Assembly: GCF_030285785.1 (NCBI RefSeq)
Contig: NZ_CP127248.1
Location: 1 to 58,037, forward strand
DNA length: 58,037 nt
Direction: 5' to 3'
From: Parasedimentitalea psychrophila
GTDB taxonomy: Bacteria > Pseudomonadota > Alphaproteobacteria > Rhodobacterales > Rhodobacteraceae
The position numbers were made by a program, and so were the translations under genes. The notes beneath the pieces are model-generated. The model was not told the DNA's origin. It searched no databases and saw only the letters and a program-made list of their open reading frames with translations. Position 1 is the stretch's first letter; each line of letters opens with the position of its first letter. Below, piece after piece: positions 6,748 to 49,044 of the stretch.

Positions 6748-7731
6748 CTACCGTTCAGAGCGCCGCATTCCGACGACCCGGGCGGCGCTCAACCCGTAGC
6801 GAACCAGCTGCCACTCGATCTGGCCCAGACGCGGATTGCGGAATTTCAACAGCCGCCGCCAGTGCAGCAGGCGCACCAAAAATTCAGGCGGCTCTGTCGC
6901 CGGGACCGCCACGCCGAGAAGGTCGTCAAGCATCATCAGCTGCAAGTCGAAAGCGAGGCGAAACCGCCAGTTGTGCCTTTTGCTTTGCAGCCAGCCCCAG
7001 TCAAGCTGGGTCTGCGGGTCCTTGATCTGCTCGGCCAGGGTCAGCAAATAGCGCAGGTTTGTAGCGCCGCTTGCCAGCGCGGTGTGATGCAGCATGTCAT
7101 GGGAAATATTGATCAGAAACCGCAGGCTGTCGTCTGGAACCCGAAAGATTATGCCGTCCCGCTCCTGTAGCGTCAGACGCGCGTTGAGATCTTCGCCGCT
7201 CAACAGGCAGGCGATGCGTTCGGGAAATGAGCTGTGCAGATCAACCGCAGCCACCGTACCAGGGCACCAGTAACTGCCCGGCGAATGTTGGTATTGGCTG
7301 TCTGCCAGCAGCTCAAACCCGAGCTGGTCAAACGCCTGCTCGACCGCTGGTAGTTCGTCCGGTTCAACCAGCAGATCCACATCAATCAGCAGGCGCGAGT
7401 ATTGCGACGGATCGGCCATAAGGGCCATCTCGCTGGCGCCTTTGATCAGCGTCGGGGTCACACCCTTTGCGTTGAAGCCTTTGATCGCCTTGCAAACCAG
7501 CGCCCACAGGTTGCGGTTGCGGGCCTGATTGGCACGCTCCAGCTCTGCCAGATAGGCCCGCGCCTCTGGTTCGGCGCGCGCTGCCGCATCCGAGGCCTCC
7601 AGGCTGCGGCAGAGCACCGGGGCCACAAATTCGGCATTCGCCGTTGAAATCAGTTCAAACCAATTGGATTCGTCGTTGAATTTGCCGCCTATGCAATCTG
7701 TGAGCCGCTCTAGCGGCGAGGATGCAGTCAT
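6748..7731 (-). CDS. Uncharacterised nucleotidyltransferase (NTP_transf_5-like)
   Basis: A 327-residue protein of the nucleotidyltransferase fold. It contains the family pattern TLIKGASEMAL (about 95-105), then SRLLIDVDLLVEP (about 112-124), whose D-x-D is the likely metal-binding pair. The start is ATG 7731 behind AGGAG; an alternative GTG at 7761 would place it one base from the upstream stop. It lies directly after the HPr-kinase-like gene, which in turn follows a small peptide gene, all on the minus strand, so the three are probably one operon. Proteins of this family occur next to HprK-like kinases and PqqD-like proteins in peptide-modification loci and in polysaccharide loci. The substrate is unknown. 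Confidence 0.8.
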   Translation of the reverse strand: MTASSPLERLTDCIGGKFNDESNWFELISTANAEFVAPVLCRSLEASDAAARAEPEARAYLAELERANQARNRNLWALVCKAIKGFNAKGVTPTLIKGASEMALMADPSQYSRLLIDVDLLVEPDELPAVEQAFDQLGFELLADSQYQHSPGSYWCPGTVAAVDLHSSFPERIACLLSGEDLNARLTLQERDGIIFRVPDDSLRFLINISHDMLHHTALASGATNLRYLLTLAEQIKDPQTQLDWGWLQSKRHNWRFRLAFDLQLMMLDDLLGVAVPATEPPEFLVRLLHWRRLLKFRNPRLGQIEWQLVRYGLSAARVVGMRRSER

Positions 7732-7762
7732 TTTAGGCTCCTGGGGTGAAATGTGGCTCACG

Positions 7763-8923
7763 TCAGACCGGCTCCCTTAAAGCTGGCGCGCCATCGCAAA
7801 AGCGCTGGAGGAGGTCCACCGCCATCGAAAGATCGCAGTAGCGCAGCCGGACGCAGCTGGCGCCGTCGACACATGCGGCCAGCGCGCTGAATTCCTCTGG
7901 TGTCAGCGCGGTTTCCCCCGACCATGCAGATCCGATCAGGCCAGAAATCGTTTCTGGCGCGGTGACTGGCGAGACGCTTGGGGAGTGGCCTGGCGAGTGG
8001 CCCTCAGTCCGGTCGAGAAAAACAATCCAGCCGACAGCACGCGGTTTGAGCGCCGTTTCACCATCGACAGCCAGATAGCGCACATGGCGATCATCGGGGC
8101 GCAGATGGGTTGCGGCAGCGGCTATTTCGACCTGGCGATCCTTCAATAGGGTCCAGGAGCCGGTTTTCAGGGTGACGGGAAATGGCAAGGCGCGCACTGT
8201 TCCATCGGGCGACAGGGTGGCGAGATCATCGCCGGCCAGTGTGAACCCCTTGGCTCCCAGCGCCGTTGCCAGGGTACTTTTACCGGCGCCGGGCCCGCCC
8301 ACCAGCAATATTGCCCGCTCCCCTTTGTGCAGCAGCGCGACATGCAGCAAAAGATCGTCCATATTATCCAGCACCGCGTCGGTGATGGCGATCTTCAGCA
8401 GCGGCACCACCTCAGACGCCGAGGCCCACTCAATTGGGCTGCCCCGCAGGGCAACACCCAGCTTGTCGCCGGACCGCTGCACCGAAATATAGGCGTCACA
8501 GGGCAGGGGGGACGACTGGGGGGACGACTGGGCCATATGGGCGAATTCGGCGGCAATCAGATCGTGCAGACCCGCGTCACCGTAACAGACGAGAACCCTG
8601 GCGGCGCCGGTATTGACGAGCTGTGTGCTGGCAACCGGGGCAACACCGCCTTCGGTCAAAAGCGGCTCAATAGCGCCAACCGAAAGAAGATCGCCGACCA
8701 CCGAAGGTGCGCAGAGACCAGAGACCAGCGGCACTACACCGTCGCAGACCACGCCAGTCTCGAAGCGGGGCCAGGCCGCGGCAGCCTCGCTGTTCAGGGC
8801 ACAAACAGATTGTTGCGCTTCAATGAAAAGATAGGCTTGGCCGCCGATCCAAGCCAGCCGGTTTCCGTCGGCGGATATCAGCAGTTGCGTTGCTATTGTG
8901 CCCTCTCCCCACTGTCCCGGCAT
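7763..8923 (-). CDS. PqqD-like / HPr-kinase-like fusion protein
   Basis: About 386 residues. The N-terminal part (about 15-95) has a PqqD-like pattern (CALNSEAAAAWPRFETG through DLLSVGAIEPLL), as in peptide-chaperone domains. The C-terminal part is an HPr kinase/phosphorylase-like P-loop domain with GGPGAGKST (about 209-217) and the acidic pair in LAGDDLATL (about 229-237). Such stand-alone kinases phosphorylate serine in HPr or, in some peptide gene clusters, in a precursor peptide. The start is uncertain: ATG 8923 is given, and TTG 8950 is the only in-frame alternative after a stop codon. Neither has a good ribosome-binding site. Short duplications encode SSPQSSP and GHSPGHSPS. The gene lies between the nucleotidyltransferase and small-peptide genes on the same strand; the partner peptide is inferred. 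Confidence 0.75.
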   Translation of the reverse strand: MPGQWGEGTIATQLLISADGNRLAWIGGQAYLFIEAQQSVCALNSEAAAAWPRFETGVVCDGVVPLVSGLCAPSVVGDLLSVGAIEPLLTEGGVAPVASTQLVNTGAARVLVCYGDAGLHDLIAAEFAHMAQSSPQSSPLPCDAYISVQRSGDKLGVALRGSPIEWASASEVVPLLKIAITDAVLDNMDDLLLHVALLHKGERAILLVGGPGAGKSTLATALGAKGFTLAGDDLATLSPDGTVRALPFPVTLKTGSWTLLKDRQVEIAAAATHLRPDDRHVRYLAVDGETALKPRAVGWIVFLDRTEGHSPGHSPSVSPVTAPETISGLIGSAWSGETALTPEEFSALAACVDGASCVRLRYCDLSMAVDLLQRFCDGAPALREPV

Positions 8924-9036
8924 GGGGTGCGCGGCCGCGGATGGCTGCAAGGTTTGACCGATCCGGCAGCTTTACGAGCCTTGCCTCGGCTTTTCCAAAG
9001 CGCCGGTCCTGTCGGTTCATTCAGCAAGCGACCAGG

Positions 9037-9312
9037 TCAGGAACCCCAGCCATTTCGGCGGGCCATCCTTCTCAGTCTCCTAATCTGCTGCGGTCTCATA
9101 TTCCTGCCGCGGTTCCAGCGGCGATGGCTCTGCCCGTGCGCCCTGCCACCACCGGATCTGAAAATACCGGATGCTTCAGCATCCTTGGCGGTCGACAAAA
9201 GAACAACCACAGCGGCCGGAGTAGCGGCAGCGTAACACCCGGCTTTTACCAGCAGTTCGCGCCGTTCAGGCATTTCGGGAAGTTCGCCTTGATTTTTTTG
9301 AGAATCAGTCAC
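9037..9312 (-). CDS. Small exported-looking Arg-rich peptide
   Basis: A 91-residue protein. Residues 17-24 (RRELLVKA) resemble a twin-arginine export motif, residues 25-40 are hydrophobic, and AEA at 45-47 is a plausible signal-peptidase site. The remaining 44 residues contain 13 Arg, two His, several Gly and no Asp, Glu or Lys. They end in NGWGS with a C-terminal serine. The start is GTG 9312 with AAGGGG six bases upstream. It is followed on the same strand by the PqqD/HprK-like and nucleotidyltransferase genes, a context compatible with a modified secreted peptide. No homologue was recognised, so modification and function are hypotheses. The ORF itself is supported by its start site, export-signal layout and operon position. 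Confidence 0.6.
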   Translation of the reverse strand: MTDSQKNQGELPEMPERRELLVKAGCYAAATPAAVVVLLSTAKDAEASGIFRSGGGRAHGQSHRRWNRGRNMRPQQIRRLRRMARRNGWGS

Positions 9313-9818
9313 TTCAAACCCCTTACAATGGAATTACCATCAAATATTAACCAAGTTATATATCAAATCAAGACTTGAAGTATTTTTATCACAGCATCGT
9401 TTACCGCAGCCTATGGCTTGACTATTTACCTGATAGTGCTCCGAGGTGGTGTCTCAAGCCCTCATTCAGCCATAACAGGTTTTATAATCACCAAAGCCGA
9501 AGCACAGGCCGCCAATAGCACAGCCCGAAAGAAGGCTGTTCTGCTCATTCTGAGATTGACCTAAGCCACTAATTTTCAAGAAAAATTTAGGGCCTCTGAA
9601 AGGGGAGACGCGTCTTGCGCGATTGCAATCGGGGCAGGCCGAGCAAAACCTTTCCGGTGCCGGGACCGTGGCAGACCGGTCGAAACGCGACGTGCCAGTG
9701 TCGATGCCGCGATGGTCTGGTCTAGGGATTGGGTCCAAACTATGGTATTGGAGTATCCTATATTAACCTTTTCATAGCGCATTTACCAGCGTGTTGCGCC
9801 GGTCAAAGGTGGGGCCGC
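9313..9818. other. Divergent intergenic region, likely promoters
   Basis: About 500 bases lie between the small-peptide gene (minus) and the flippase gene (plus). The part next to the peptide gene (9313-9430) is AT-rich and suits its promoter. Short ORFs here look spurious. No distinctive hairpin was seen. Confidence 0.45.
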
Positions 9819-11282
9819 ATGACCGACAGCATAAAACCCGACAATGTGGACGACAGCGTCAGGAGTATTTTCTGGGCCTATGCCTCGTTTTTTTGCACCA
9901 AAGTTCTCAACCTGATCTCAATTGTCGTGTTGGCCTGGTATCTGCAGCCTGCCGAATTCGGCCTGTTGGCAATTTGCCTGGCGGTTATGGGTTATTTCGA
10001 GATCATTTCGCAATTTGGAATGGGGGCGGCGCTGATTTCTGCCCGCGAAAAAATCGAGGAAACCGCCAGTGCGGTGCTGCTATGCGGCCTGGTGTTTTCC
10101 TGCACCCTGGTGGCGCTCATCTTGGTGAGCGCACCAGCGATCGCCGACTGGTACGGCGACCCAAAGCTGGCGGATCTGTTGCCGGTCATTGCCATCACCC
10201 TGCTGGTGCGCGCACTCACCACGGTGAATACCAGCTTTCTTTTTCGGGACCTGCGTTTCAAGGCGAAGCTGCTGCCGGACGTGGCGCGCGGCCTGACCAA
10301 GGGGCTGCTGGCGATCGCTCTCGCGGTACTCGGCTTTGGCGTCTGGGCGCTGGTGTTCGGTCACCTTGCCGGGGCGGTTGCCGGCAGCATCGTCACCTGG
10401 ATTGTGCGGCCCTGGCGGCCGAAACGCTGGCCCGATCTGGCGACATTCAAATACATCGCCCGGTTTGGCGCCAACCTGATCGGCGCCCAGACCATAAACG
10501 CCACCCCGCGACTGCTCGACACCCTGCTGGTTGGCAAAGTCCTGGGCATGGCATCGCTTGGCATCTATTCTCTGGCCTTCCGCATTCCCGAGCTTGGCAT
10601 CAAGACTTTCACCAATGTTGTCGGCTCGGTGCTGCATCCGGTCATGTCGAAGATCCAGTCCGATCCTGTTGAGCTCAAGGCCTATTACTATGGGGCGCTG
10701 AAATACTGCGCCCTTTTGATGTTCGGAGCGGGCGCTGCAATCGCGATCCTTGCCGAGCCGCTGATCCACGTTCTCTACGCGCCGAAGTGGTACGCCATGA
10801 TTGTGCCGATGCAGTTGCTGGCCGTGGGTTTTGCGATCGGCACCATCAATATGGTGCCTGGCAATCTGTTCAAGGCTTTGAGCCGGACCGACCTGATGCT
10901 CAAGGTCTCCTTGATCAACCTGCCGTTTTTCCTGGTTCTGATATGGTTTGCGGTTCCCTATGGCATCACAGCAGTGGCGTTTATTCAGCTGGTGCTGGCG
11001 CTGATCAGGTTTGTGCCGAACTACCTGTTGCTGCAGCGCGCTCTGGATATATCGGTGCGGGATACATTTGCTGCCCTGAAGCCGGGCATTGGCTGCGCCC
11101 TGGCCGGATCTGCGGCCGGGATCATCACCCTGAGGCTAGACTTCACCAGCAATGAGCTGACACGGCTGCTGGTGGTCGCCCTTGTCTTTGTCGGCGCCTA
11201 CCTTCTGTGCGTGCGTCTGGTGATGCCGGAAATATTTCGCGAGATTGCCCGCCGGACATTGGGAAAAACCGGTCCCGCCTGA
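9819..11282 (+). CDS. Wzx-type oligosaccharide flippase (MOP superfamily)
   Basis: A 487-residue inner-membrane protein with about 12-14 hydrophobic segments. It has the polysaccharide-transporter pattern: SIFWAYASFFCTKVLNLIS near the start, FGLLAICLAVMGYFEIISQFG, then RFGANLIGAQTINATPR and VLGMASLGIYSLAFRIPE in the middle. It resembles WzxC-like exporters that flip undecaprenyl-linked repeat units to the periplasm. The start is ATG 9819 (MTDSIKPD), preceded by AAAGGTGGGG; the longer frame from 9729 is not supported. It fits the Wzx role in the Wzx/Wzy pathway whose polymerase, copolymerase and export genes lie downstream. Confidence 0.9.
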   Translation: MTDSIKPDNVDDSVRSIFWAYASFFCTKVLNLISIVVLAWYLQPAEFGLLAICLAVMGYFEIISQFGMGAALISAREKIEETASAVLLCGLVFSCTLVALILVSAPAIADWYGDPKLADLLPVIAITLLVRALTTVNTSFLFRDLRFKAKLLPDVARGLTKGLLAIALAVLGFGVWALVFGHLAGAVAGSIVTWIVRPWRPKRWPDLATFKYIARFGANLIGAQTINATPRLLDTLLVGKVLGMASLGIYSLAFRIPELGIKTFTNVVGSVLHPVMSKIQSDPVELKAYYYGALKYCALLMFGAGAAIAILAEPLIHVLYAPKWYAMIVPMQLLAVGFAIGTINMVPGNLFKALSRTDLMLKVSLINLPFFLVLIWFAVPYGITAVAFIQLVLALIRFVPNYLLLQRALDISVRDTFAALKPGIGCALAGSAAGIITLRLDFTSNELTRLLVVALVFVGAYLLCVRLVMPEIFREIARRTLGKTGPA

Positions 11283-11377: not shown

Positions 11378-13585
11378 TCACGCAAACAGCGCGTCAGCAA
11401 AGATTTCGATGCTGTCGATACGCAGCGGTTCGCCGCCGTCGGAATAGCCTTGCAGCACGATGGATTCGCCGGCCTCAATATGGACATCCTGGATCATATG
11501 GCGCGCCAAGCTGTCGGGAGCCGCAAGATCCTGTTCGGTCTCCTGATCCCAAGTCCAGCTATCGACCACAACACCACCAACAAGCACCTCAAGGAAGCTC
11601 GCCCCATCGGCCTCGTCGAAGTAATCGATGGCGATATCGTGGTTGCCGGTTTCCCCCTCGAAGGTTGTCGACGCCTTTGCCTGGCCGTTTTTACTGGCCT
11701 TGATCAGCTCACCACCGGAGGCACTGGAGTTCTCGCGAACTTTCCACCCGGATTCCAGCAACATTGATTCCGCTTCAATCTTGTAGCTCGGCTGGTCGGG
11801 ATCCGGTGTTGGATCGGGGTCAACCTCGCCGGGGTCACCGGAGCCCTGCAGCTGGAAGTCGAAATAATCGACCCTGAGCTGTTCTTTGCCACCGCTGGTG
11901 CCGGAAAAGGTGATGGTGTCGCCGGCATTGATCTGCACGCCCTCGATCGCCCGTTCGGTATGGGTGTTGCCGTCGGCGAAATTGGAGCCTAACTCCTGGT
12001 CCCAATCCCAGCTGTCAACCATGTTGCCATTGATGAAAACAGACATGTTCGAAACGCCATCGGCCTCATCGAAATAGCCGATATCAAGATTGTAGGTGCC
12101 GCTCTCTCCGGCAAATACCGTCGAGGCTTCGCCACTGTTTCCGGCTTTGACGCCAATCAGCGCATCCCCCGAAGCGGAGCCATTCGACGAAACGGAGAAC
12201 CCGGTTAGCGAGCCAAAGTCTTCGCCCTCAAGCCGGATCACCGGGGCATCGTCGGTCGGTGGATCGGTGGGTACCACGGGATCAACCGGATCAACCGGAT
12301 CAACCGGGTCAGGATCGGTAGGTGGCGTGGTGATCGGGCCATCTGGATCGGAGGGCTGGCCGAAGCCGTCGATCAAGCCGTTGATGTAATCCTCGATGTT
12401 AGACACACCGTTGCCATCGGCATCGCCGTGCGCGTCAAACAGGTCAGGATTGGTGCCAAACAGCACTTCGTGGGCGTCCGGTATCCCATCGTCGTCCCGG
12501 TCGCTCGGGGCTTTGGTGTTGTCAACAGGATCATAGCCGCCGACGTCATCTGGCGAGTCGATGATGCTCCCGGTGCCGTCAATCACCGATTGGATGATCC
12601 GCGCATCGGTTGCAGTCAGATCCGGGTAGCGCGCGCCGGCGTTCTCCAGAACGTAGTCGACAACTTCGGACGACGGCAGCACGGTGACATTGCTCGGGTC
12701 AAACACGTAACTATCGGTGATCTTTGAGGTGGCGGCGCCAGCGACTTCGGCGATGTTGTCTTCAAGGTAATAGGCGGTGCCATCCTCAGGTGATTTCAGC
12801 TGGATGGCCGCACGGCCCGCCGAATCCTCACCCGCGATATAGACGTTGCCGATGATGTGGGCGGTTGTTCCCTCGTGGCCAAGAAAGCCGTTCGGTCCGT
12901 AATTGTAGATAACGTTGTTGATGAACTCGATCTGCTGCGAGTCATCTTTGATCGTGGCATTACGGAACTCGTTATGGGCAATCAGGTTGCCAGAGATGGT
13001 GACGTTGGAACTGCCATCGCCAACCAGCAGCGCCATCGAGTGATCGCCTTTTGAGTGGAGCGAACTCTGCAGCGCCTCGGACATGATGTTGTTGGAGATG
13101 GTGATGTTCTGCGAGCCGTACCAAACCGTGACCAACTCGTCGATCGACCAGCTGAACGAGTTGCCATCAAGCACAACGTTTTCGACGGTCTGATCCTTGT
13201 TGCCGATTGATATCCCGTCGCGGTTGTCCGGGGTATCACCGTCGCCGTCGCCTGGGCGAAACTGCATGCCACGGATGATGACATCACTCTCCAGGATCCG
13301 CAGTTTGGCTCCGGTCACAGTAATGCCATCCGGCGACGTCTGACCGGCGACAGTGACATCGCCATTCACAGCGATGGAATCTTTCAGCTCGATCTGGCCG
13401 CTGACTTCAAAGACCACAATCCGTGGCCCGTCGAGTTCCTCTAGCGCCCATCTGAGCGATCCCGGACCGGAGTCCGCCAGAGTAGTGACCTTCACGATCT
13501 CTCCGCCGCGCCCGCCATCTGCCTCAGAGCCAAATCCTTCGGCTCCGGCAAAGGCCAGGTCGGCCTCCAAAATACTTTCAGTCAT
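11378..13585 (-). CDS. Secreted pectate-lyase-like protein with two carbohydrate-binding-like modules
   Basis: A 735-residue protein. Residues about 10-330 are a right-handed beta-helix of the polysaccharide lyase 1 type (AEGFGSEADGGRGG, DSGPGSLRWAL, RDGISIGNKDQTVENVVLD, SFSWSIDELVT). Residues about 365-405 hold calcium-binding Asp-rich motifs (DRDDDGIPDAHE, DADGNGVSNIEDY). After a Pro/Asp/Thr linker there are two beta-sandwich modules (about 450-580 and 605-735) with a shared YFDEADG signature. There is no signal peptide. The C-terminus ends EPLRIDSIEIFADALFA, an acidic residue followed by hydrophobic residues, as in type I secretion signals. The end of the 2087-residue protein at 27277 is similar. 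It probably binds or trims the exopolysaccharide. The start ATG 13585 has AAGGAA upstream. The exact substrate is unknown. Confidence 0.87.
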   Translation of the reverse strand: MTESILEADLAFAGAEGFGSEADGGRGGEIVKVTTLADSGPGSLRWALEELDGPRIVVFEVSGQIELKDSIAVNGDVTVAGQTSPDGITVTGAKLRILESDVIIRGMQFRPGDGDGDTPDNRDGISIGNKDQTVENVVLDGNSFSWSIDELVTVWYGSQNITISNNIMSEALQSSLHSKGDHSMALLVGDGSSNVTISGNLIAHNEFRNATIKDDSQQIEFINNVIYNYGPNGFLGHEGTTAHIIGNVYIAGEDSAGRAAIQLKSPEDGTAYYLEDNIAEVAGAATSKITDSYVFDPSNVTVLPSSEVVDYVLENAGARYPDLTATDARIIQSVIDGTGSIIDSPDDVGGYDPVDNTKAPSDRDDDGIPDAHEVLFGTNPDLFDAHGDADGNGVSNIEDYINGLIDGFGQPSDPDGPITTPPTDPDPVDPVDPVDPVVPTDPPTDDAPVIRLEGEDFGSLTGFSVSSNGSASGDALIGVKAGNSGEASTVFAGESGTYNLDIGYFDEADGVSNMSVFINGNMVDSWDWDQELGSNFADGNTHTERAIEGVQINAGDTITFSGTSGGKEQLRVDYFDFQLQGSGDPGEVDPDPTPDPDQPSYKIEAESMLLESGWKVRENSSASGGELIKASKNGQAKASTTFEGETGNHDIAIDYFDEADGASFLEVLVGGVVVDSWTWDQETEQDLAAPDSLARHMIQDVHIEAGESIVLQGYSDGGEPLRIDSIEIFADALFA
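12281..12307. repeat. Three 9-bp tandem repeats in the lyase linker
   Basis: ATCAACCGG is repeated three times without change, encoding the DPVDPVDPV segment of the linker before the first carbohydrate-binding-like module. Confidence 0.9.
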
Positions 13586-27276: not shown

Positions 27277-29679
27277 CTAAGCGATCAACTCATCATTGAA
27301 CACAAAATCGATATAGTCGGTGCGCAGCGGTTCGCTACCATCCTTGAAGCCGACGAACTCGATCACGTCACCGGCTGTCAGCGACAGGTCGCTGATGATG
27401 TGTTCGGTAAAGGAGGTCTGGTCGGCCGTCGCCGATCCGGCATCGGCATTCCAGATAAAGCTGTCGACCTCAAACCCGTTCACCAGGATGCTCATTTGCG
27501 ACTGGCCGTCGGACTCGTCGAAATGGCCAATTTCCAGATCATAGATGCCACTGGCCGCTGCAAATGCATAAGATGCCCGCTGTTCGCCGCTGCCGTTGGC
27601 CTGCAGATACTGGCCGCCCGAAGCCTGGTTGTTGTTCTTGACGTTAAAACCGCTGAGGATGGTGAGCGTCTCAGCTTCGACCCGGAACGGACCCGGCGGC
27701 GGCACCGACAGATCAACCGTGAAGCCCTGCATCGCTGGGTCACCCGACACGAAATTGCCGCTGGTGTCCTGAACCTCCGCCGCCAGAAGCGCTACAGTAT
27801 AGCTGCCTTCGTCGGCCACATCCCAGGTTCCACCCGGCGCGTCCACCGTATAGGTCGCGGTGCGCGGGGTTCCATCACCGCTGATGTCGACGCTGACGGC
27901 GCTGACCAAAAGCGCACCACCCGGACCGGTGACGGTGATGTCGCCGGTGTCGATGGAGGAGACGTCGATCGCCACATTGTCAGAGAAGGTCACTGTGACA
28001 TCCATACTCACCGTTCCGGCCCCGGCAGGGCCGACGTCGGGGGCCAAAGACGACTGGATGAAAGGTGATGTCGTGTCGCCACCGCCGCCGCCATCGACAA
28101 ACACAAAGTCGATATAATCGGTGCGCAGCGGCTCGCCTCCATCCTTGAAGCCGACGATCTCGATCACGTCACCGGCAGACAGCGACACGCCACTGATCGC
28201 GTGTTCGACAAAGGAGGTCTGGTTGGCGGAGGAGGCTCCTGCGTCGATGTTCCAGATAAAGTTGTCGATCTCGGTCCCATTCACCAGGATGCTCATTTGC
28301 GACTGGCCGTCGGACTCGTCGAAATGGCCAATCCCCAGATCATAGGTGCCGCTCACCGCTGCGAACGTGTAGGACGCCCGCTGCTCGCCGCTGCCACCAG
28401 CCTGCAGATATTGCCCGCCGGAGGCCTGACCATTGTTCTTGACGTTAAAACCGCTGAGGATGGTGAGCGTCTCAGCTTCGACCCGGAACGGATCCGGCGG
28501 CGCCGCGGACAGGTCAACCGTGAATCCCTGCATCGACGGATCGGCCGACACGAAATTGCCGCTGGTGTCCTGAATTTCCGTGGCCAGAAGGGCGACGTTA
28601 TAGCTGCCCTCGTCGGCCACATCCCAGCTGCCACCCGGCGCGTCCACCGTATAGGTCGCGGTGCGCGGGGTTCCATCACCGCCGATGTCGACGCTGACGG
28701 CGCTGATCGTGAGCGCACCACCCGGCCCGGTGACGGTGATGTCACCGGTATCGATTGAGGACACATCAATCGCCACGTTGTCAGAGAAGGTCACTGTGAC
28801 ATCCATAGTGGCGCTACCGGCCTCAGCAGGGCCGACGTCGGGCGCCAAAGACGACTGGATGAAAGGTGATGTCGTATCACCGCCACCGCCGCCATCGACA
28901 AACACAAAGTCGATATAGTCGGTGCGCAGCGGCTCACTGCCATCCTTGAAGCCGACGATCTCGATCACGTCACCGGCAGACAGCGACACGCCACTGATCG
29001 CGTGTTCGACAAAGGAGGTCTGGTTGGCGGTGGAGCCTCCGGCGTCGATGTCCCAGACAAAGTTATGGATCTCGGTCCCATTCACCAGGATGCTCATTTG
29101 CGACTGGCCGTCGGATTCGTCGAAATGGCCAATCCCCAGATCATAGCTGCCGCTCACCGCTGCGAACGTGTAGGACGCCCGCTGCTCGCCGCTGCCGCCA
29201 GCCTGCAGATACTGCCCGCCCGAAGCCTGATTGTTGTTCTTGACGTTAAAACCGCTGAGGATAGTGAACGTCTCAGCTTCGACCCGGAACGGATCCGGCG
29301 GCGCCGCCGATAGATCAACCGTGAAGCCCTGCATAGACGGGTCGGCCGACACGAAATTGCCGCTGGTGTCCTCAACCTCGGCGGCCAGAAGGGCAACGTT
29401 ATAGCTGCCCTCGTCCGCCACATCCCAGGTTCCACCCGGCGCGTCCACCGTATAGGTCGCGGTGCGCGGGGTTCCATCACCGCTGATGTCGACGCTGACG
29501 GCGCTAACCAAAAGCGCACCGCCCGGACCGGTAACGGTGATGTCGCCGGTGTCGATGGAGGAGACGTCAATCGCCACGTTGTCAGCGAAGGTCACGGTGA
29601 CATCCATACTGACAGTGCCGGCACCAGCAGAGCCAATGTTGGGCGCCAAAGAGGACTGAACCACCGGCGCGGCTGTATC
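27277..29679. repeat. Three 801-bp tandem coding repeats
   Basis: Three near-identical 801-bp units (267 codons) make up the 3' third of the giant gene. Landmarks recur exactly 801 bases apart, such as the stretches at about 27300, 28101 and 28902. Long stretches differ at only a few bases, so unequal crossing-over could change copy number. Confidence 0.93.
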
Positions 29680-32600
29680 GCCGCCGCCCGGGTCAAACGT
29701 CAGGAAAACCGGCTGGGTCACCGCACCCAGCGGCGCGTTGGCGTCGGCAGGGTTGATAATCGAGGCCACAAAGGCGAGAGGAACTTCATCCTCGCCGTCA
29801 AAAGTATAGTCGGCAACACCAGAGAAATCGAACGTCGACGAAATGTCTTGGTTGGTGCCATCGAGGGTAATGTCGAAGGTCTGCAGTTCGACAATATTGT
29901 TGGCCGGGAAGTCGCTGGCCGCCAGCGTGGCAAGCTGGGCATCAAGCTGAGGCGCGTAGGCCTGATCCTCACTGTTGCCGTTGTAAAACTCGTTGGTTAC
30001 CGGCTGAATAAAGCCTTTGACCAGGGTCACCCGCGCCACATGCCCGGTCGGACCGTTCAGGATCACTGTCGGACCGCCGGTTCCGTAGGTTCCGGTGTCA
30101 CCCGCCGCCACACCGTTCACTGAAAGAGTTGGCTCTAGCCCCGGTGTGGCCTGCGACGACACCGTGTAGGCGCCGCCATTGTTTTGCGCACTGATCAAAT
30201 CACCGGTGCTGGTGGTGCCGTCCGCGTAGGTGACGGTTACCGTCGAGGCGATGATCTCGGCGCCGGATATTCCGGCGGCATCCCAGCTCATGAACGAACC
30301 GGCATCCAGCAAGGTCTTCTTGCCGCCCAGCAGCGAATTCGGGTCCACGTCGATCGAGAAGGTGACCGTTTCGCCGGGATCAAAATCGTCGAAGGTCACA
30401 ATGAGACCCTCATAACCGGCGGCGCCGCCGAGGCCTACATAGTTCGACGCATCAGGCGTGGTATCCACGCCGGTTGATCCCGCCGAGTCGATGGTCAGCC
30501 CCTTGAAAATGGTATCGCCAGCCTCGCCAAACGGATCAAAGACCGCGTCCGGGATGATGCCGTTGGTCAGGTCAAACTCGACCTGTGTGATTATCTTCTC
30601 GCCGACATTGGCAATCTCAAAAGAGCCGGCTGAAAAGGTCGATTGGTTGATGTTGTCCGAGCCTTCATTGACACCAATCCGAGCCGCCCCGACCACCGGG
30701 TCGATGTTGTCGACGTCGATCCAATCCCAGGAGGCGGCGAAGGAATCATCACCGTCCGGCGCCGAGGCCATCATGCCGACAAAGGCACCGGTGGTGGCAC
30801 CCAAATTGTCGTATTGCCCTTTGACCGCGGCAATCACATCCGGCGGCAGCAGCAACGCCGATGTGGAGACCCATTCGGTATAGGCGCCATCCTCGACATA
30901 GCGCGCCTGCGCCCGGACGGAGTCGATCCCGGAGGTCAGGTTCAGATCAATGGCCACCTGGAAATTCGGATCGCCAAGCCCGGCGATAATCGGCGCTTCG
31001 ATGCCGGGGATTTCAACAAATCTGGTGACTGCAACATCGTCTGTTTCCACCAGCAACTGGACGCCATATTTCATCGTGCCGCCCTGATCAACAACGGCTA
31101 TGGCCGCTTCGACATAGTTGGACTGATCACCTGGCCCCAGCACCAGCCCGACTTTCTCGCCGCCGTCCCAGACCTTGGCAGGCGGATCGGTGTTCAGCGA
31201 ATAGGTAAAGATATTCACCATCTCGGTGGTGATGGTTAGCTGGGTGGCATCCGGGGTGGCAAAGCCAATGCCCAGAACATCCTGCTGGCTGTTGGTGACC
31301 CCCACAGCGGTTCCGTCATGCGCCACATCAAGGCTGACAAAACTGGAGGCACCGCCCAGATTAAACACCCCACCATTAAACAGACCCGCAGCTTCATCAC
31401 CGCCATTTTCAACCGCTGGCAGCACGCCATTGCGCCAAGCGGCATTGATCCCGATACCGCCGGCGATGCTGTTGCCCGGCGGCACCGCACCAGACGGTGT
31501 GGACGACGGATTGTTGAGCTCGAAATCCCAGAGGGCTGAATTTCCCTGGGTGATAAGCACACCAAGACCGTTGAGCGGATCACCGACATGGCTGTCCAGG
31601 ATGTCGTTGAGCCCGTCCAGATCCAAGTCATTACCGGGGTCGATCGGGGTGCCGCCCGGCACCAGGAAGGTGATCACATTGGCGCCATAAGTCGCCACCG
31701 CAATCACTCCCGAAAAATCATCAATGCCATCGCCGGTATTGTCGATCAAAGCTGCCGACAGGCCCTGATCCGGCAGCGCCACCAGCGCCAGAGGATTAGA
31801 CCCTGCAAGCGATACCGTATGAACAATGCTGGCGCTGTCGGTGCGGCCATCGCCATCGGTGTCTTCGGGCATTGCAAAATATAATGTCTCGTCAAAGCTC
31901 GCCGCGACAATGGCGCCCTGCAACTGACCGTTGAAATAGGTGGCGGTGAACTCGGTCAGCCCGTTGGTCGACTCCGGCGTCTCAATCAGCGAGCCGTCGT
32001 TGGTTTCGTCAAGCGACTGCGATTCAGGCGAGTAGGGGGTGCCATCCATCACGCTGGTGCCGTCAAAGAAATCCAGCGGGTTGTCGATCGAGCTGCCGGG
32101 ATGTGCCCAGTCATAGCCGGACAGCACGTCGAACAGGTCGGCCGGCAAGCCAGTATCTGAGGTCACGTCATTCCAGGACCCGGATCCGTCCTGCTCATAA
32201 ATGATCAGCAGTTGCGACAGATAGTTTTGCGCGTCTGCCTCGTTGGCAAAAATCTGGATGCCATCGACAATAATCGGATCCGACGATGTGGCCCCCTTAT
32301 AGCTGCCATCGCTGTTAAAGGACGCCTGCAGCGCGGTTTGCGCCGCCCTGAGCGGGCTGGCATGGCCGCCGTAAGTTCCGTAAGCGTCGGTGACATTGCC
32401 GAGATAATGCAGCTGGTCACCAAAACCGCTGCTGCCGCTTTCATTAAACGCGTTGGTGGCGAATTCAGTGGTCCAGTCGTCAACGATTGCGCCATCGGAA
32501 TAGGACAGAGGTTGTCCGCCCCAGCCGCCATTGGGGCCGTTGTCCCAGGTGAAAACCTCGCCCGAGCTCATTGCGATGACATCGTAAGGATTACGGTATC

Positions 32601-33540
32601 CCGGCGCGAACAGCTCCACCGGGTTGCTCACAAGTTTGAGCTGGCCGCCGTCGCTGACCAGAACGTAGTCGGTGATCTTGGCCTGGTTCAGACCATTGTT
32701 GCCGCCCGCCCAGTCGGGTTGCAGCACGCCGCCAATCTCTCCGTTGTCATCAAGTGTGAAATTGGGGTCCAGAGCAAGATCCTGGATCGACAGGGTTGCG
32801 AGGTCGATATTTGTCCGCGTTGGATCATCCAGCGTTGGCAGATCGAGAATATACTGGTTGCCGTTGGCATCCGTCCTGATGTCGTAGGATTCCAGTTCGG
32901 TGAGGTTGATCTTGATGATTGCGCCCGACCAGGCAAAATCAGTTGTGCCGGCAAAGTTGTTGCCCGGCGCGCCCTTGTTGGTGATGCCACCCACCGCGAC
33001 ATACATGATCACATCGCCAGTGTCGGGATCGATTGCCAGGTCGATACCGTTGTTGGCGTGGTTCTCTTCGGAGCGTGGCAACCCGCGCAGAACGGCAACG
33101 CTGGAGAGCACTGCGCCAGTGTCCGGATCCAGCGTAATGCGGTGGACCTGGCCGGAATTGGTATCAAGGCCGCTGTCTTCGCCAACGGCGATCCGCCAGT
33201 CGGAAGACGAGACATAAAGCACATCATTGCCGGCCGCGTCCTTGGTCACCACCATGCCAGTGACCTGACGCTGTTGGGTGCCATTCAGGGTGCCGTCATC
33301 ATCAAAGTTCTGCACGTCTTCCGGCACAACATCGATCAATGTGGTGCCGGTCACCACAAATTCATCCGTTGTATCCGCATCCGGACCATCGGGCTGGCGT
33401 TCTATTTCATACCGGTAGATGGACCCGTCCTGCTGCGCCACGAACAAAGTGGGGTTGCCGGTCTTGCTAAAGTCGATTGCGGTTGGGTTGACTGAAACGT
33501 TACCGCTCAGATCGGTTATGCCGAACGTGATAGGCTCCAT
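27277..33540 (-). CDS. Giant secreted sugar-dehydrogenase-like protein with three Ig/carbohydrate-binding repeats
   Basis: A 2087-residue acidic protein with no signal peptide. Residues about 1-640 resemble a glucose/sorbosone dehydrogenase-type beta-propeller (TLFVAQQDGSIYRYE, NHANNGIDLAIDPDTGDV, GYRNPYDVIAM, YDWAHPG). Asp-rich calcium motifs follow (DTDGDGRTD, DNTGDGIDDF, DLDGLNDI, about 565-690), then a lectin-like beta region (about 700-960) and beta-rich sequence to about 1285. The C-terminal 800 residues are three 267-residue repeats. Each has an Ig-like domain (SSIDTGDITVTGPGGAL) and a carbohydrate-binding-like module (GHFDESDGQSQMSILVNG). The end, EPLRTDYIDFVFNDELIA, resembles the lyase-like protein's tail and a type I secretion signal. 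It probably acts on or anchors to the exopolysaccharide. Catalysis is unproven, and no RTX repeats are seen. Confidence 0.87.
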   Translation of the reverse strand: MEPITFGITDLSGNVSVNPTAIDFSKTGNPTLFVAQQDGSIYRYEIERQPDGPDADTTDEFVVTGTTLIDVVPEDVQNFDDDGTLNGTQQRQVTGMVVTKDAAGNDVLYVSSSDWRIAVGEDSGLDTNSGQVHRITLDPDTGAVLSSVAVLRGLPRSEENHANNGIDLAIDPDTGDVIMYVAVGGITNKGAPGNNFAGTTDFAWSGAIIKINLTELESYDIRTDANGNQYILDLPTLDDPTRTNIDLATLSIQDLALDPNFTLDDNGEIGGVLQPDWAGGNNGLNQAKITDYVLVSDGGQLKLVSNPVELFAPGYRNPYDVIAMSSGEVFTWDNGPNGGWGGQPLSYSDGAIVDDWTTEFATNAFNESGSSGFGDQLHYLGNVTDAYGTYGGHASPLRAAQTALQASFNSDGSYKGATSSDPIIVDGIQIFANEADAQNYLSQLLIIYEQDGSGSWNDVTSDTGLPADLFDVLSGYDWAHPGSSIDNPLDFFDGTSVMDGTPYSPESQSLDETNDGSLIETPESTNGLTEFTATYFNGQLQGAIVAASFDETLYFAMPEDTDGDGRTDSASIVHTVSLAGSNPLALVALPDQGLSAALIDNTGDGIDDFSGVIAVATYGANVITFLVPGGTPIDPGNDLDLDGLNDILDSHVGDPLNGLGVLITQGNSALWDFELNNPSSTPSGAVPPGNSIAGGIGINAAWRNGVLPAVENGGDEAAGLFNGGVFNLGGASSFVSLDVAHDGTAVGVTNSQQDVLGIGFATPDATQLTITTEMVNIFTYSLNTDPPAKVWDGGEKVGLVLGPGDQSNYVEAAIAVVDQGGTMKYGVQLLVETDDVAVTRFVEIPGIEAPIIAGLGDPNFQVAIDLNLTSGIDSVRAQARYVEDGAYTEWVSTSALLLPPDVIAAVKGQYDNLGATTGAFVGMMASAPDGDDSFAASWDWIDVDNIDPVVGAARIGVNEGSDNINQSTFSAGSFEIANVGEKIITQVEFDLTNGIIPDAVFDPFGEAGDTIFKGLTIDSAGSTGVDTTPDASNYVGLGGAAGYEGLIVTFDDFDPGETVTFSIDVDPNSLLGGKKTLLDAGSFMSWDAAGISGAEIIASTVTVTYADGTTSTGDLISAQNNGGAYTVSSQATPGLEPTLSVNGVAAGDTGTYGTGGPTVILNGPTGHVARVTLVKGFIQPVTNEFYNGNSEDQAYAPQLDAQLATLAASDFPANNIVELQTFDITLDGTNQDISSTFDFSGVADYTFDGEDEVPLAFVASIINPADANAPLGAVTQPVFLTFDPGGGDTAAPVVQSSLAPNIGSAGAGTVSMDVTVTFADNVAIDVSSIDTGDITVTGPGGALLVSAVSVDISGDGTPRTATYTVDAPGGTWDVADEGSYNVALLAAEVEDTSGNFVSADPSMQGFTVDLSAAPPDPFRVEAETFTILSGFNVKNNNQASGGQYLQAGGSGEQRASYTFAAVSGSYDLGIGHFDESDGQSQMSILVNGTEIHNFVWDIDAGGSTANQTSFVEHAISGVSLSAGDVIEIVGFKDGSEPLRTDYIDFVFVDGGGGGDTTSPFIQSSLAPDVGPAEAGSATMDVTVTFSDNVAIDVSSIDTGDITVTGPGGALTISAVSVDIGGDGTPRTATYTVDAPGGSWDVADEGSYNVALLATEIQDTSGNFVSADPSMQGFTVDLSAAPPDPFRVEAETLTILSGFNVKNNGQASGGQYLQAGGSGEQRASYTFAAVSGTYDLGIGHFDESDGQSQMSILVNGTEIDNFIWNIDAGASSANQTSFVEHAISGVSLSAGDVIEIVGFKDGGEPLRTDYIDFVFVDGGGGGDTTSPFIQSSLAPDVGPAGAGTVSMDVTVTFSDNVAIDVSSIDTGDITVTGPGGALLVSAVSVDISGDGTPRTATYTVDAPGGTWDVADEGSYTVALLAAEVQDTSGNFVSGDPAMQGFTVDLSVPPPGPFRVEAETLTILSGFNVKNNNQASGGQYLQANGSGEQRASYAFAAASGIYDLEIGHFDESDGQSQMSILVNGFEVDSFIWNADAGSATADQTSFTEHIISDLSLTAGDVIEFVGFKDGSEPLRTDYIDFVFNDELIA

Positions 33541-42569: not shown

Positions 42570-43661
42570 CTAGCGATACAGCAGCGATTGGCCGTTGTGA
42601 AAGATGTGGATCTTTGAGGCCGTCGCAGTCAGCCGCAGTTTCTGCCCGCGCAAACCGTTGTGAATCCCTGGCAATTTGGCAATCAGTGGGTCTTTACCCT
42701 GACCAGACTTAAAGTAGAGCACCGTCACTTCGCCAAGCGCCTCTACGATATTGACGGTGGCCTCCATCACCCATTGGTGGGTTTTGGTCACCACCATATC
42801 CTCTGGCCGCACTCCGATATTGACGCTCAACCCCAGGTCACTGTCGCGGCTGGGCACGTTTGACGTCACCTCGCCACCCGTCGCAAGGCGCAGGGTTGTG
42901 ATCTCACCAGTGCCGGTGATCTCGGCGGCAAACAGGTTCATCGCAGGTGATCCGATAAATTGGGCGACAAACTCGTTTTCGGGGCGCTCATACAGCTCTA
43001 GCGGTGTGCCCACCTGGGCAATGCCTTTGTTGGCCAGAACCACGATCCGATCCGCCAGGGTCATCGCCTCGACCTGATCGTGGGTGACATAGACCATGGT
43101 GCTGTCTGGCATCGCCTCTTTCAGTTGTGAAATCTCAATCCGGGTGGCGACGCGCAGCGCCGCATCCAGGTTCGAGAGCGGCTCGTCGAACAGATAGACC
43201 TTGGGGTCGCGCACGATAGAGCGGCCAATCGCCACCCGCTGGCGCTGGCCACCGGACAGGGCTTTTGGCAGCCGATCTAACAGCTCGTCCAGTTGCAGGG
43301 TCTTGGCGACCCTATCGATAGTGGCGTTGATTTCGGCCTTGGGCTTGCCTGCAATCTTCAGGGCAAATGCCATGTTGTCGCGCACCGTCATATGCGGATA
43401 AAGCGCGTAAGACTGGAACACCATGGCAATGCCGCGTTGTGCGGGGGGGATGTCATTCACCACCTGACCGTCGATTTCCAAACTCCCTGAGGAGATCTTC
43501 TCCAGTCCCGCAATCATCCGCAGCAATGTGGATTTGCCGCAGCCCGAGGGGCCGACAAAAACAATCAGCTCGCCGCTTTGAATGTCGAGATTGATGTTGT
43601 TGAGAACGTTAACCGTGCCGCCATAGGTCTTGGCAAGATCGGTCAATTTCAAATTGGCCAT
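42570..43661 (-). CDS. aglK: Alpha-glucoside ABC transporter ATP-binding protein
   Basis: A 363-residue MalK/UgpC-type ATPase. Walker A is GPSGCGKST (about 37-45), the Q-loop is VFQSYALYPHMTV, the signature is LSGGQRQRVAIGRSIVRDPKV, Walker B is YLFDEPLSNLDA and the H-loop is VTHDQVEAMTLADRI. A C-terminal OB-fold regulatory domain follows (GVRPEDM near 275). The start ATG 43661 has GGGAGA upstream; the frame running on to 43850 overlaps the hydrolase gene. It ends the aglE-F-G-A-K series and energises the two permeases. The symbol rests on synteny and family similarity. Confidence 0.9.
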   Translation of the reverse strand: MANLKLTDLAKTYGGTVNVLNNINLDIQSGELIVFVGPSGCGKSTLLRMIAGLEKISSGSLEIDGQVVNDIPPAQRGIAMVFQSYALYPHMTVRDNMAFALKIAGKPKAEINATIDRVAKTLQLDELLDRLPKALSGGQRQRVAIGRSIVRDPKVYLFDEPLSNLDAALRVATRIEISQLKEAMPDSTMVYVTHDQVEAMTLADRIVVLANKGIAQVGTPLELYERPENEFVAQFIGSPAMNLFAAEITGTGEITTLRLATGGEVTSNVPSRDSDLGLSVNIGVRPEDMVVTKTHQWVMEATVNIVEALGEVTVLYFKSGQGKDPLIAKLPGIHNGLRGQKLRLTATASKIHIFHNGQSLLYR

Positions 43662-43675
43662 GTAGGTATCTCCCT

Positions 43676-45352
43676 TTACTCGTTCAGACCCGGCGCGCCA
43701 GACAGGGTTGCCAGACAGGGTTGCCATGGCTGTAAGCTCACCACATTGCCTGCTGAAATTTCCGCACTGCCCAGTTCCGCGCCGATCTGCAGCCAGTTGC
43801 CCTTGGGCAGGGTCAGTTGGCGGCGCCTGTCGCCAAGGTTGAAAGCACAAAATAGCGTTTCAGAGCCTTGGGTTCTGACAAAACTCAAAACCCCATCTGC
43901 GGATTTCATATCTGCCAGCTCACCTTTGATGAGTGCCGGGTTGGCGCGGCGCAATGCAATGGCGCGGCGATAATGGTGCAGGATCGCATCTGGATCGACG
44001 TCCTGCACCGCCACCGCCTGGGCCAGATGCTCTGCCCCCAACGGCAACCAGGGCTTGCCAGTTGTGAACCCGCCGCTGGAGTTTGATTTTTCCCAGACCA
44101 TCGGCGTGCGGCAACCATCGCGGCCTTTGAACTGGGGCCAGAATTCAATGCCGTAGGGGTCTTGCAGGTCTTCAAAAGTGACGTCGGCCTCGCTCAGGCC
44201 CAGTTCCTCGCCCTGATACAGGCAGACGGTGCCGCGGAGGCACAGCATCATGGTGGTGAACAGGCGTTGCGCCGCTGGCGACAGATCCCAGCGCGAGGCG
44301 TGGCGCATCACGTCGTGGTTGGAGAAGGCCCAGCAAGCCCAACCGTCGGCGGCGACAGTGTTCAACCGGTCAAAGACCTCAAAAATGCGCGTCGCCGTCA
44401 ACGGCGATTGCTCAAGAAATTCAAAGGCATAACACATGTGCACAAAATCGTCGCCAGCAGTGTACTGGCCTAGGATTTCCAGCCCAAGCTGGGCATCCCC
44501 CACCTCGCCCACTGCGGCTTTGTCGGGGTATTGATCCAGCAGGCTGCGGAACCGGCGCAGGAACTCCAGGTTCTCGGGCTGGTTTTTTGAGTACAGGTGC
44601 TGCTGGTGGTTATAGGGGTTTACTGAGGGTGCGATGGTGGAATTGCGCAGCTCAAGCGGCAGCGCCGGGTTGTCGCGCAGCTGCTTGTCATGGGTGTAGA
44701 AATTGATGGTGTCCAGCCGGTAGCCATCAACGCCCCGGTCCAGCCAGAACCGGGTGGCGTCCAGCAATGCGTCCTGAACGGCCGCGCAGTGAAAGTTGAG
44801 ATCAGGCTGGGTGGTCAGGAAATTATGCAGGTAATACTGCTCGCGTCGGCTATCCCATTGCCAGGCCGGTCCGCCAAAGATCGACAGCCAATTGTTGGGC
44901 GCGGTGCCATCTGGTTTGGGGTCGGACCAGACGTACCAGTCCGCCTTGGCATTGGTCCGGCTGGCGCGGGATTCCGCGAACCAGGGGTGTTGATCCGAGC
45001 TATGCGACAGCACCAGATCAATCATCACCCGCAGGCCCAGCCGATGGGCGCTCTCAACCACCACATCAAAATCGGCCAGCGTGCCGAACATCGGGTCCAC
45101 ATCGCAGTAATCACTGACGTCGTAGCCAAAATCCTTCATCGGCGAGGTAAAGAACGGCGAAATCCAGATCGCGTCCACCCCGAGCGAGGCGATATAGGGC
45201 AGACGCCGGGCGATCCCCAGCAGATCACCAATGCCGTCGCCGGTGCTGTCTTGAAAGCTGCGCGGGTAGATCTGATAGATCACCGCGCCGCGCCACCAGT
45301 CTGGATCGGCGGTTTGGATTGGCTGAGGCGTGATTTGGGCGTCATTTGTCAT
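43676..45352 (-). CDS. aglA: Alpha-glucosidase (GH13)
   Basis: A 558-residue cytoplasmic GH13 hydrolase of the oligo-1,6-glucosidase/alpha-glucosidase group. AVIYQIYPRSFQDSTGDGIGDL begins the barrel. GVDGYRLDTINFY carries the nucleophile Asp, AAVGEVGDAQ the acid-base Glu and FSNHDVMR the third Asp. It splits maltose, trehalose or sucrose-like glucosides after uptake. The start chosen is ATG 45352 (MTNDAQITPQ); the open frame to 45499 overlaps the permease gene and looks spurious. It lies between the permease and ATPase genes, as in aglEFGAK operons. Confidence 0.92.
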   Translation of the reverse strand: MTNDAQITPQPIQTADPDWWRGAVIYQIYPRSFQDSTGDGIGDLLGIARRLPYIASLGVDAIWISPFFTSPMKDFGYDVSDYCDVDPMFGTLADFDVVVESAHRLGLRVMIDLVLSHSSDQHPWFAESRASRTNAKADWYVWSDPKPDGTAPNNWLSIFGGPAWQWDSRREQYYLHNFLTTQPDLNFHCAAVQDALLDATRFWLDRGVDGYRLDTINFYTHDKQLRDNPALPLELRNSTIAPSVNPYNHQQHLYSKNQPENLEFLRRFRSLLDQYPDKAAVGEVGDAQLGLEILGQYTAGDDFVHMCYAFEFLEQSPLTATRIFEVFDRLNTVAADGWACWAFSNHDVMRHASRWDLSPAAQRLFTTMMLCLRGTVCLYQGEELGLSEADVTFEDLQDPYGIEFWPQFKGRDGCRTPMVWEKSNSSGGFTTGKPWLPLGAEHLAQAVAVQDVDPDAILHHYRRAIALRRANPALIKGELADMKSADGVLSFVRTQGSETLFCAFNLGDRRRQLTLPKGNWLQIGAELGSAEISAGNVVSLQPWQPCLATLSGAPGLNE

Positions 45353-45377
45353 AGTCGTGTGTCCGTAAAGTCGTGTG

Positions 45378-46532: not shown

Positions 46533-46543
46533 CGCAGGTCTCC

Positions 46544-48983: not shown

Positions 48984-49044
48984 GATTGATCCTCCCTTAC
49001 CGCGCTGACCCAGCGCATGGTCTAGTCCGGCTCTGGCACATCAT

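Follow-up and report, generated by a model that had tools for sequence, protein, structure and literature searches.

A candidate peptide-modification operon with a Tat-type leader peptide, an RRE-HprK-like fusion kinase and an NTP_transf_5 enzyme in Parasedimentitalea psychrophila

The DNA examined here (the window) is the 58,037-base contig NZ_CP127248.1 of Parasedimentitalea psychrophila. It includes three adjacent genes, the triad, encoding a 91-residue peptide with a twin-arginine translocation (Tat)-type leader, a kinase in which a domain like the RRE of peptide-modifying systems is fused to an HprK-like domain, and an enzyme of the NTP_transf_5 family (the NTP enzyme; Table 1). We favour, with little more than even confidence, the reading that this operon would make a small peptide that is bound through its leader by the RRE-like domain, is phosphorylated on a serine, receives an addition from the NTP_transf_5 enzyme and is exported by the Tat route. 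The gene set recurs in other genomes, the leader and one serine are conserved, the RRE and kinase domains are recognisable from profile comparisons and the active-site residues are conserved. We infer from sequence comparison that the peptide is the substrate, which serine is modified, that the NTP_transf_5 enzyme acts on the phosphate, and the export route and role.

In the proposed pathway, the RRE-like N-terminal domain of the kinase would bind the peptide leader (the RR...GxFAxxTPPxVxLLLSTS segment), and the HprK-like domain would phosphorylate, perhaps polyphosphorylate, the serine of the Ser-Gly that follows the cleavage site (Ser53, or alternatively Ser48). The NTP_transf_5 enzyme would then transfer a nucleotide or a sugar or sugar-phosphate group onto the phosphoserine. 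The modified peptide would leave via Tat, with its leader cut by an ordinary signal peptidase, and the product, with a lineage-specific tail that is Arg-rich here, may reside on the cell surface or within the matrix, beside the sulfated exopolysaccharide system.

A preliminary description of this DNA, made from the letters and a list of open reading frames (ORFs), had proposed a peptide-modification operon at this place, and its outline was borne out. The three ORFs are in the ORF list at the positions given for them, on the minus strand, and the recurrence of the gene set and the RRE match support the view that an exported peptide is probably acted on by an HprK-like kinase with an RRE and by an NTP_transf_5 enzyme. 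Three of its further claims, concerning the modified residue, the role of the tail and the novelty of the product, were not upheld and are considered below.

The leader peptide and its conserved serine

The part of the window peptide that follows the AEA sequence (residues 48-91) has the composition first described, 44 amino acids including 13 Arg, no Asp or Glu and a C-terminal Ser. No NCBIfam family was found for this peptide or its 22 aligned homologues, and Pfam gave two stray single-member matches only. Across the 23 aligned peptides RR, L, G and A are invariant, and the leader consensus, taken by eye from the alignments, is RRxFLxxCGxFAxATPPAVxLLLSTS. The twin-arginine-like leader with its AEA site, also part of the first account, was confirmed among 45 strong homologues (E < 1e-10), which form 34 clusters at 80% identity and include many close relatives. 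RR is present in 44 of the 45, and the cleavage-site Ala is found at -3 in 43 and at -1 in 36. The window leader has an uncharged hydrophobic stretch from residue 24 with a mean hydropathy of 1.84 over 16 amino acids, so that a twin arginine, an uncharged hydrophobic stretch and A-x-A, the features of a Tat signal, are all present. Export of the peptide by the Tat route would be consistent with this.

The most conserved residue after the leader is the Ser that follows the cleavage site. It is found in 42/45 strong homologues, with Gly next in 37/45, and when the 80% identity clusters are counted instead, Ser is found in 31/34 and Ser-Gly in 26/34. The window peptide has two Ser-Gly pairs after AEA, Ser48-Gly49, which directly adjoins it, and one at Ser53, and it is Ser53 that lines up with the Ser of the family in the alignments. 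The conserved Ser, Ser53 in the window peptide, is thus the likely phosphosite as judged from these alignments.

The remainder of the peptide is variable. Tail charge, counted from the 37th residue after RR, ranges from -18 to +16 among the relatives, and the tails are Gly/Asn-rich, Lys/Arg-rich, Thr-rich or even poly-acidic. The peptides used for this count had been trimmed at RR, which makes RR invariant among them by definition, and one (L087) was miscut; the RR and Ser counts given above were redone on all 45 strong ORFs without this cut. Strongly basic tails (+12 or more) were found in the window and G007 (a genome of the same genus with the same triad), in Leisingera and in one of two peptides at locus L021. 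A cationic tail as the defining property of the family was consequently rejected, as was charge-based binding, which the preliminary description had suggested, as a general role. The pattern of conservation in the alignments is the one expected if the leader serves for recognition, a single site is modified and the variable remainder is the effector.

Some loci encode more than one leader peptide. In L021 (genome G144), two adjacent peptides (10129-10374 and 10594-10815) lie upstream of one RRE-kinase, one with a poly-Arg tail (+12) and the other with a poly-Asp/Glu tail (-18). Tandem RR-leader peptides without Ser-Gly were found in L090 (6927-7838, three copies) and L092 (6028-6456, two copies), and their cores differ, being Cys-rich and Pro-rich.

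Recurrence of the gene set

A tblastn search of plasmids with the kinase returned 28 records, from Leisingera, Sinorhizobium, Ensifer, Rhizobium, Novosphingobium, Methylosinus and Sphingomonas. In the four plasmid loci that were fetched, a small ORF with a homologous leader adjoins the kinase and NTP genes, upstream in Leisingera and downstream in Sinorhizobium and Ensifer, and such an ORF is also found beside both genes in G156 and G014, which belong to the window's family. Gene order and strand vary between loci and the set stays together, which argues that the small ORF is a genuine gene that moves together with those of the enzymes. The preliminary description had proposed searching for the same triad in other genomes and had made its reading depend on conservation of the small ORF; leader peptides beside homologous kinase and NTP genes were found in Leisingera, Sinorhizobium/Ensifer and other alphaproteobacterial genomes. 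A blastn search of plasmids with the triad DNA gave no match, and a scan of genome contigs, with at least three distant matches among 589 candidate stretches, was uninformative.

Kinase and peptide also co-occur in two genome samples. In the order sample (n=297), the kinase was found in 18 genomes (E<=1e-40), the peptide in 14 (E<=1e-4) and both in 11 (Fisher p 3e-13), and the three peptide-only genomes are weak matches in frames of 354-388 amino acids. In the class sample (n=385, the window's own genome included), the corresponding numbers were 17 (E<=1e-15), 14 (E<=1e-3) and 8 (Fisher p 6e-9). These p values overstate the association, because they ignore the relatedness of the genomes and because the profiles contain G000 (the window's own genome) and, for the order sample, G756. 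The whole-genome searches scored only 5 or 6 kinase candidates per genome, so the kinase absences are soft.

Adjacency was examined on fetched stretches. In the kinase-selected genomes of the order sample, a leader ORF was on the stretch in 12/18 (eight clear at E<=3e-7, four at E 2e-5 to 8e-3), with one more recognised by eye. Among all fetched kinase loci (E < 1e-39; contig ends truncate L049 and L050), a hidden Markov model (HMM) detected a leader ORF in 28/36, a fraction biased upward by L146-L159, which came from the peptide search, and one more was seen by eye. In further genomes with a strong peptide match, the kinase was found in 8/8 and lay on the same 13-14-kb stretch in 7/8. A strict Tat-like-leader pattern, sought in ORFs on the same strand, no longer than 260 amino acids and within 1.5 kb upstream, was found for 11/32 kinases versus 9/305 control ORFs (p 9e-8); by design it misses peptides downstream or on the opposite strand.

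Several observations weigh against the proposed pathway. The kinase is rare, occurring in 4/394 genomes of the window's family, and the triad is an accessory set. A clear peptide was found in only 2/8 same-genus genomes; peptide matches numbered 7/121, and only those in G000 and G007 were counted, the others (G055, G069, G076, G104 and G004) being weak (E 2e-4 to 0.007), in frames that are long or stop-interrupted (four) or of 201 amino acids (G076). No peptide was detected by HMM on the stretch of 8/36 kinase loci, one of which has a peptide by eye. Conversely, G512 (100% complete) and G520 have a peptide and no kinase match, and the pSymB records of Sinorhizobium meliloti carry orphan peptides, with NC_003078.1 not among the 28 kinase-matching records of a search that covered plasmids only. 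The aligned Ser is missing from both L021 peptides and from L056. The divergent loci L140, L143, L144 and L145 have lost the Ser directly following A-x-A, and unrelated Tat signals (L094, 1e-4) score within the range of their leaders (8e-3 to 3e-7). Finally, the ratio of non-synonymous to synonymous substitution rates (Ka/Ks) of the window and G007 peptides is 0.73 over 90 codons, and selection on the peptide is not shown. Given the orphans in G512, G520 and S. meliloti and the loss of the Ser in L021, L056 and the most divergent peptides, some lineages may do without the kinase or have one that acts in trans.

The strongest alternative, though an unlikely one, is that the peptides are simply surface or matrix proteins, exported by Tat and bearing low-complexity tails, which the kinase and NTP pair modifies in some lineages only. 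Genomes with several copies (G947 has six matches), the orphans and the variable tails would fit this. It is opposed by the presence of the kinase in 6/8 class-sample genomes with a strong peptide, as well as in the further eight, and by the retention of the Ser in orphan peptides too, a sign that an enzyme acts on them in trans or did so in the past.

Orphan leader peptides were found at up to three places per record in S. meliloti and S. medicae plasmids (L124-L127; for example NC_003078.1, 1319212-1319349), with no kinase on the stretch, and Sinorhizobium accounts for 71 of the 92 plasmid records in which the Sinorhizobium peptide has a match. In L086 (5377-7233) and L089 (7362-9164), a similar secreted-looking protein of about 600 amino acids, with no Pfam match, is convergent to the orphan peptides.

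The two enzymes and their predicted target

The kinase had been described as a PqqD/HprK fusion. The HprK part is supported by TIGR04352 (HprK-related kinase A; E 2e-21), at 76 bits against a cut-off of 200. The PqqD part was not recovered in the window protein itself, in which Pfam PqqD has no match, but is supported by the family, 8/16 aligned members of which match PqqD. HprK_rel_A matches all 16 and Hpr_kinase_C 10/16 at E 0.01, while TIGR04353 (PqqD family chaperone) has no match in the window kinase and a weak one in 1/16. When the kinase-family profile was compared with the PDB, positions 10-96 matched the lasso-peptide RRE TbiB1 (5v1u, E 5e-8), positions 6-89 TfuB1 (6jx3, E 3e-6) and positions 171-236 HprK/P (1ko7, E 2e-6). 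The TbiB1 and TfuB1 RREs are reported to have been solved together with leader peptides. Because the N-terminus matches lasso-peptide RREs, the leader peptide is the likely ligand of the RRE-like domain. An AlphaFold2 (AF2) model of the kinase has a mean predicted local distance difference test (pLDDT) score of 85.5 and a PEPCK/HprK fold, with low confidence for residues 1-19. H203 and K224 are found in 16/16 aligned kinases, D241 in 15/16 and D242 in 13/16 (Glu in the rest). Ka/Ks between the window and G007 is 0.26 for the kinase and 0.23 for the NTP gene, indicating purifying selection.

The assignment of the third protein to NTP_transf_5 was confirmed by PF14907 (E 7e-22, above cut-off), and K107, G108, R123, D127 and D129 are invariant in 18 aligned members. 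Its AF2 model has a pLDDT of 88.6. No solved fold matched this model below E 1e-3, and the nearest (E 1e-3 to 5e-3) were ANT(2'')-Ia, a fungal nucleotidyltransferase-like protein, TM1012 and FKRP; comparison of the NTP profile with PDB sequences gave a best E of 0.08. FKRP is a ribitol-phosphate transferase that acts on a phosphorylated glycan, and its presence among the nearest folds would fit a role for the NTP enzyme after the kinase. The Leisingera locus also holds a glucose-1-phosphate cytidylyltransferase gene; this and the FKRP-like fold are hints only of a post-kinase role. The NTP step is the least certain part of the proposed pathway, and a study of linear polyphosphorylated peptides (LPPs; PMC13381572), in which no effect of LppN was detected, speaks against it.

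The kinase gene follows the peptide gene after 86 bases, and one base separates the kinase stop from the NTP gene. A scan for promoters and terminators gave signal within one standard deviation of shuffled sequences.

Table 1. Features of the triad in the window
Feature	Position	Strand	Basis
Precursor peptide, 91 aa, GTG start	9037..9312	-	ORF list; homologues with the same leader adjoin homologous kinase/NTP genes
Shine-Dalgarno-like AAGGGG, 6 nt before GTG	9319..9324	-	AAGGGG also precedes GTG in G007
Leader, residues 1-47, ends AEA, twin-arginine (Tat)-type	9172..9312	-	Alignment
Arg17-Arg18	9259..9264	-	Alignments
Ser53-Gly-Gly-Gly, proposed phosphorylation site	9145..9156	-	Aligned with family Ser
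RRE(PqqD-like)-HprK-like fusion kinase, 395 aa; start codon TTG in the ORF list	7763..8950	-	Profiles, AF2 model
RRE/PqqD-like N-terminal domain, about residues 20-96	8663..8893	-	Family profile versus TbiB1, TfuB1
HprK-like kinase domain, residues 198-383; H203, K224 (P-loop), D241	7802..8359	-	TIGR04352
NTP_transf_5 nucleotidyltransferase-fold enzyme, 337 aa; alternative start at inner ATG, 7731	6748..7761	-	PF14907
NTP enzyme motif K107-G108...R123...D127-x-D129	7375..7443	-	Invariant in 18 aligned

Other divisions of labour were considered. It is doubtful, and a little less probable than plain export, that the NTP_transf_5 enzyme is the main modifier, nucleotidylating the peptide directly (by adenylylation, for example) with the kinase in a supporting or regulatory role. 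The invariant K-G...R...D-x-D motif and the presence of aminoglycoside and lincosamide nucleotidyltransferases among the best solved folds are in keeping with this; however, FKRP is also among those folds, it is the kinase to which the RRE-like domain is fused, and in pseudomycoidin synthesis the kinase is reported to act first (PMC9266682).

That the kinase targets HPr or another cytosolic protein, with the peptide a bystander or sensor, appears improbable. While its kinase domain is HprK-like and the peptide occurs in some genomes that have no kinase match, the RRE-type N-terminus and the co-occurrence and adjacency of kinase and peptide argue against it. A separate chromosomal gene in the same genome (G000:C1, L009 1222-1668), adjoining a sensor-kinase-like ORF, encodes a 148-amino-acid HprK-like protein with an Hpr_kinase_C match above the Pfam cut-off and hpr-ser, below cut-off, as its best NCBIfam match, and the triad kinase therefore need not serve HPr. 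Phosphorylation of the C-terminal Ser91, the target first suggested and the position used by the paeninodin-type kinases PadeK and ThcoK (PMC9266682), is very improbable, and was rejected on conservation, as the window peptide ends in Ser but that of G007, 87% identical, ends in GWG, and the last residue in other relatives is H, R, W, K, F, E or yet another.

Relation to known systems and genomic setting

The closest described systems are the LPPs of Bacillota (Nat Commun, 20 May 2026; PMC13381572), in which LppK phosphorylates Ser3 of a linear core with one to four phosphates, and for which the authors suggest a role in biofilms. Both systems have a small precursor with a conserved N-terminus and a variable C-terminus, an HprK-like kinase, an RRE and an NTP transferase. 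The phosphoserine of LPPs is near the start of the core, and the predicted site of the triad is the conserved Ser just after the cleavage site. LPP genes lie in capsule or exopolysaccharide loci, as the triad does in the window. The differences are that the RRE is discrete in LPP systems and fused to the kinase in the triad, that the LPP leader motif YxxPxVLxHQxIxFETxxS was not seen, by eye, in the triad, which has the RR Tat-type consensus, and that the hosts are Bacillota in one case and alphaproteobacteria in the other. LPP loci also include the SipW-like signal peptidase LppS and an MsbA-like exporter (PMC13381572), neither of which was found among the part of the window ORFs that was scanned with Pfam. 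Hence the suggestion that a linear phosphorylated peptide would be new has been overtaken by the LPPs. Linear peptides tailored by a kinase and an NTP transferase are already known, and the triad differs from them in its Tat-type leader and fused RRE-kinase, both recognised by comparison.

Lasso peptides provide further parallels. Lasso B1-kind RRE domains match the N-terminus of the triad kinase family, and H203, K224 and D241 resemble residues of lasso-tailoring kinases (PMC9266682). In lasso tailoring of the paeninodin/pseudomycoidin kind, an NTP-transferase homologue acts on the phosphoserine; for pseudomycoidin, PsmK phosphorylates first and PsmN is then needed for hexose addition (PMC9266682). 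The triad has an NTP_transf_5 gene. However, lasso peptides are cyclised, with a C-terminal Ser phosphorylated in the paeninodin group, whereas the C-terminal Ser of the triad is not conserved and neither a macrolactam cyclase nor a leader peptidase B2 was found among the scanned ORFs. Bufferins, which are MNIO-modified ribosomally synthesised and post-translationally modified peptides, share with the triad peptide a presumed order of cytosolic modification followed by a general secretion signal, and differ in enzymes, chemistry and signal type (PMC12452194).

The bufferin signal is Sec-type.

The enzyme set is the same as that of the NCBIfam HPr-rel-A system (TIGR04352, TIGR04353 and a nucleotidyltransferase). 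The window has the neighbouring nucleotidyltransferase gene, but its triad kinase falls below the TIGR04352 cut-off and has no TIGR04353 match. In the HPr-rel-A loci that were read, PqqD and the kinase are separate genes, in contrast to the fusion in the window, and the first protein is 90-220 amino acids long. An RR-leader protein is encoded by the first gene of an annotated Sphingomonas HPr-rel-A locus (L160) and is the first protein in 7/8 loci that pass the TIGR04352 cut-off among 10 genomes from family f39; an RR-leader ORF is also upstream in 6/7 deep kinase loci read by eye (not L053). Because HPr-rel-A loci also begin with an RR-leader protein, the window triad is in our view a fused-RRE branch of a larger HPr-rel-A-type group with a Tat-type peptide as its putative substrate. 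The RR-leader first proteins of the HPr-rel-A loci L052 (=L161), L054 (=L162), L163, L164, L166 and L167 are 170-220 amino acids long, contain Cys and share a similar C-terminal region, unlike the short peptides. Neither a description of the triad system nor a function for the HPr kinase/PqqD/nucleotidyltransferase set was found in the open-licence PMC literature, and a word search of two RRE papers (PMC12710340 and PMC7470986) did not find 'kinase' or 'HprK'.

The window is the whole of contig 2 of a 4-contig, 5.0-Mb genome and hence is probably a plasmid; genes resembling RepA, ParA and ParB were recognised by eye from the ORF list near 50-55 kb. Matches to plasmids of Phaeobacter and Leisingera cover about 5% of the first 24 kb, the part concerned being a LuxR-type pair near 0.9-3.4 kb. 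The triad had been described as lying beside a sulfated polysaccharide locus, and this label is sound, since four sulfotransferases, Wzy_C, Bac_transf and Poly_export are among the nine window ORFs scanned with Pfam. Elsewhere in the window, a 2087-amino-acid ORF (27277-33540) has three near-identical repeats and C-terminal modules that by eye resemble those of the beta-helix protein at 11378-13585. The ORF list also includes an apparent alpha-glucoside ABC transporter/glucosidase/LacI operon (42570-50251) and an ABC-exporter-like ORF (55.8-57.6 kb).

Polysaccharide genes are also near the kinase in several relatives: G007, Leisingera and L053 (both Poly_export), G014 (ManC, Wzz), G756, G1005 and G1029 (sugar transferase), and G778 and L140 (glycosyltransferase). 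A relative of a glycosyltransferase, Wzx, Wza, sugar transferase or sulfotransferase was found on 9/42 kinase stretches besides the window (L139 weakly) versus 1/22 kinase-free peptide stretches. This check used blastp against the window exopolysaccharide proteins together with Pfam, on stretches of differing length with the short L107 and L115 left out, and sees only some exopolysaccharide families. L022 adds ManC and Wzz by Pfam. No polysaccharide genes were seen near the Sinorhizobium kinase in the annotation, or near most other kinase loci in this limited search. The possibility that the polysaccharide setting is special to the window was dropped. In three genomes (L045, L152 and L154), a relative of bacterial sugar transferases of the priming glycosyltransferase type is within about 5 kb of the kinase.

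A bolder extension, unlikely as it stands, is that RRE-HprK kinases phosphorylate a class of alphaproteobacterial Tat-leader peptides, to whose Ser-Gly NTP_transf_5 enzymes then add a sugar-phosphate or glycan cap. The product would be a bacterial proteoglycan-like phosphoglycan peptide, the basic-tailed form of which would tether or organise sulfated exopolysaccharide on exopolysaccharide plasmids. If true, this would also supply a substrate for the uncharacterised HPr-rel-A gene families. The pathway that we favour proposes a substrate for the kinase/PqqD/nucleotidyltransferase set annotated by NCBI in alphaproteobacteria, and offers one testable residue. It would extend peptide phosphorylation of the lasso and LPP type to a Gram-negative export route, and would link such a peptide to the sulfated exopolysaccharide genes of the window plasmid, polysaccharide genes being near several relatives as they are near LPPs.

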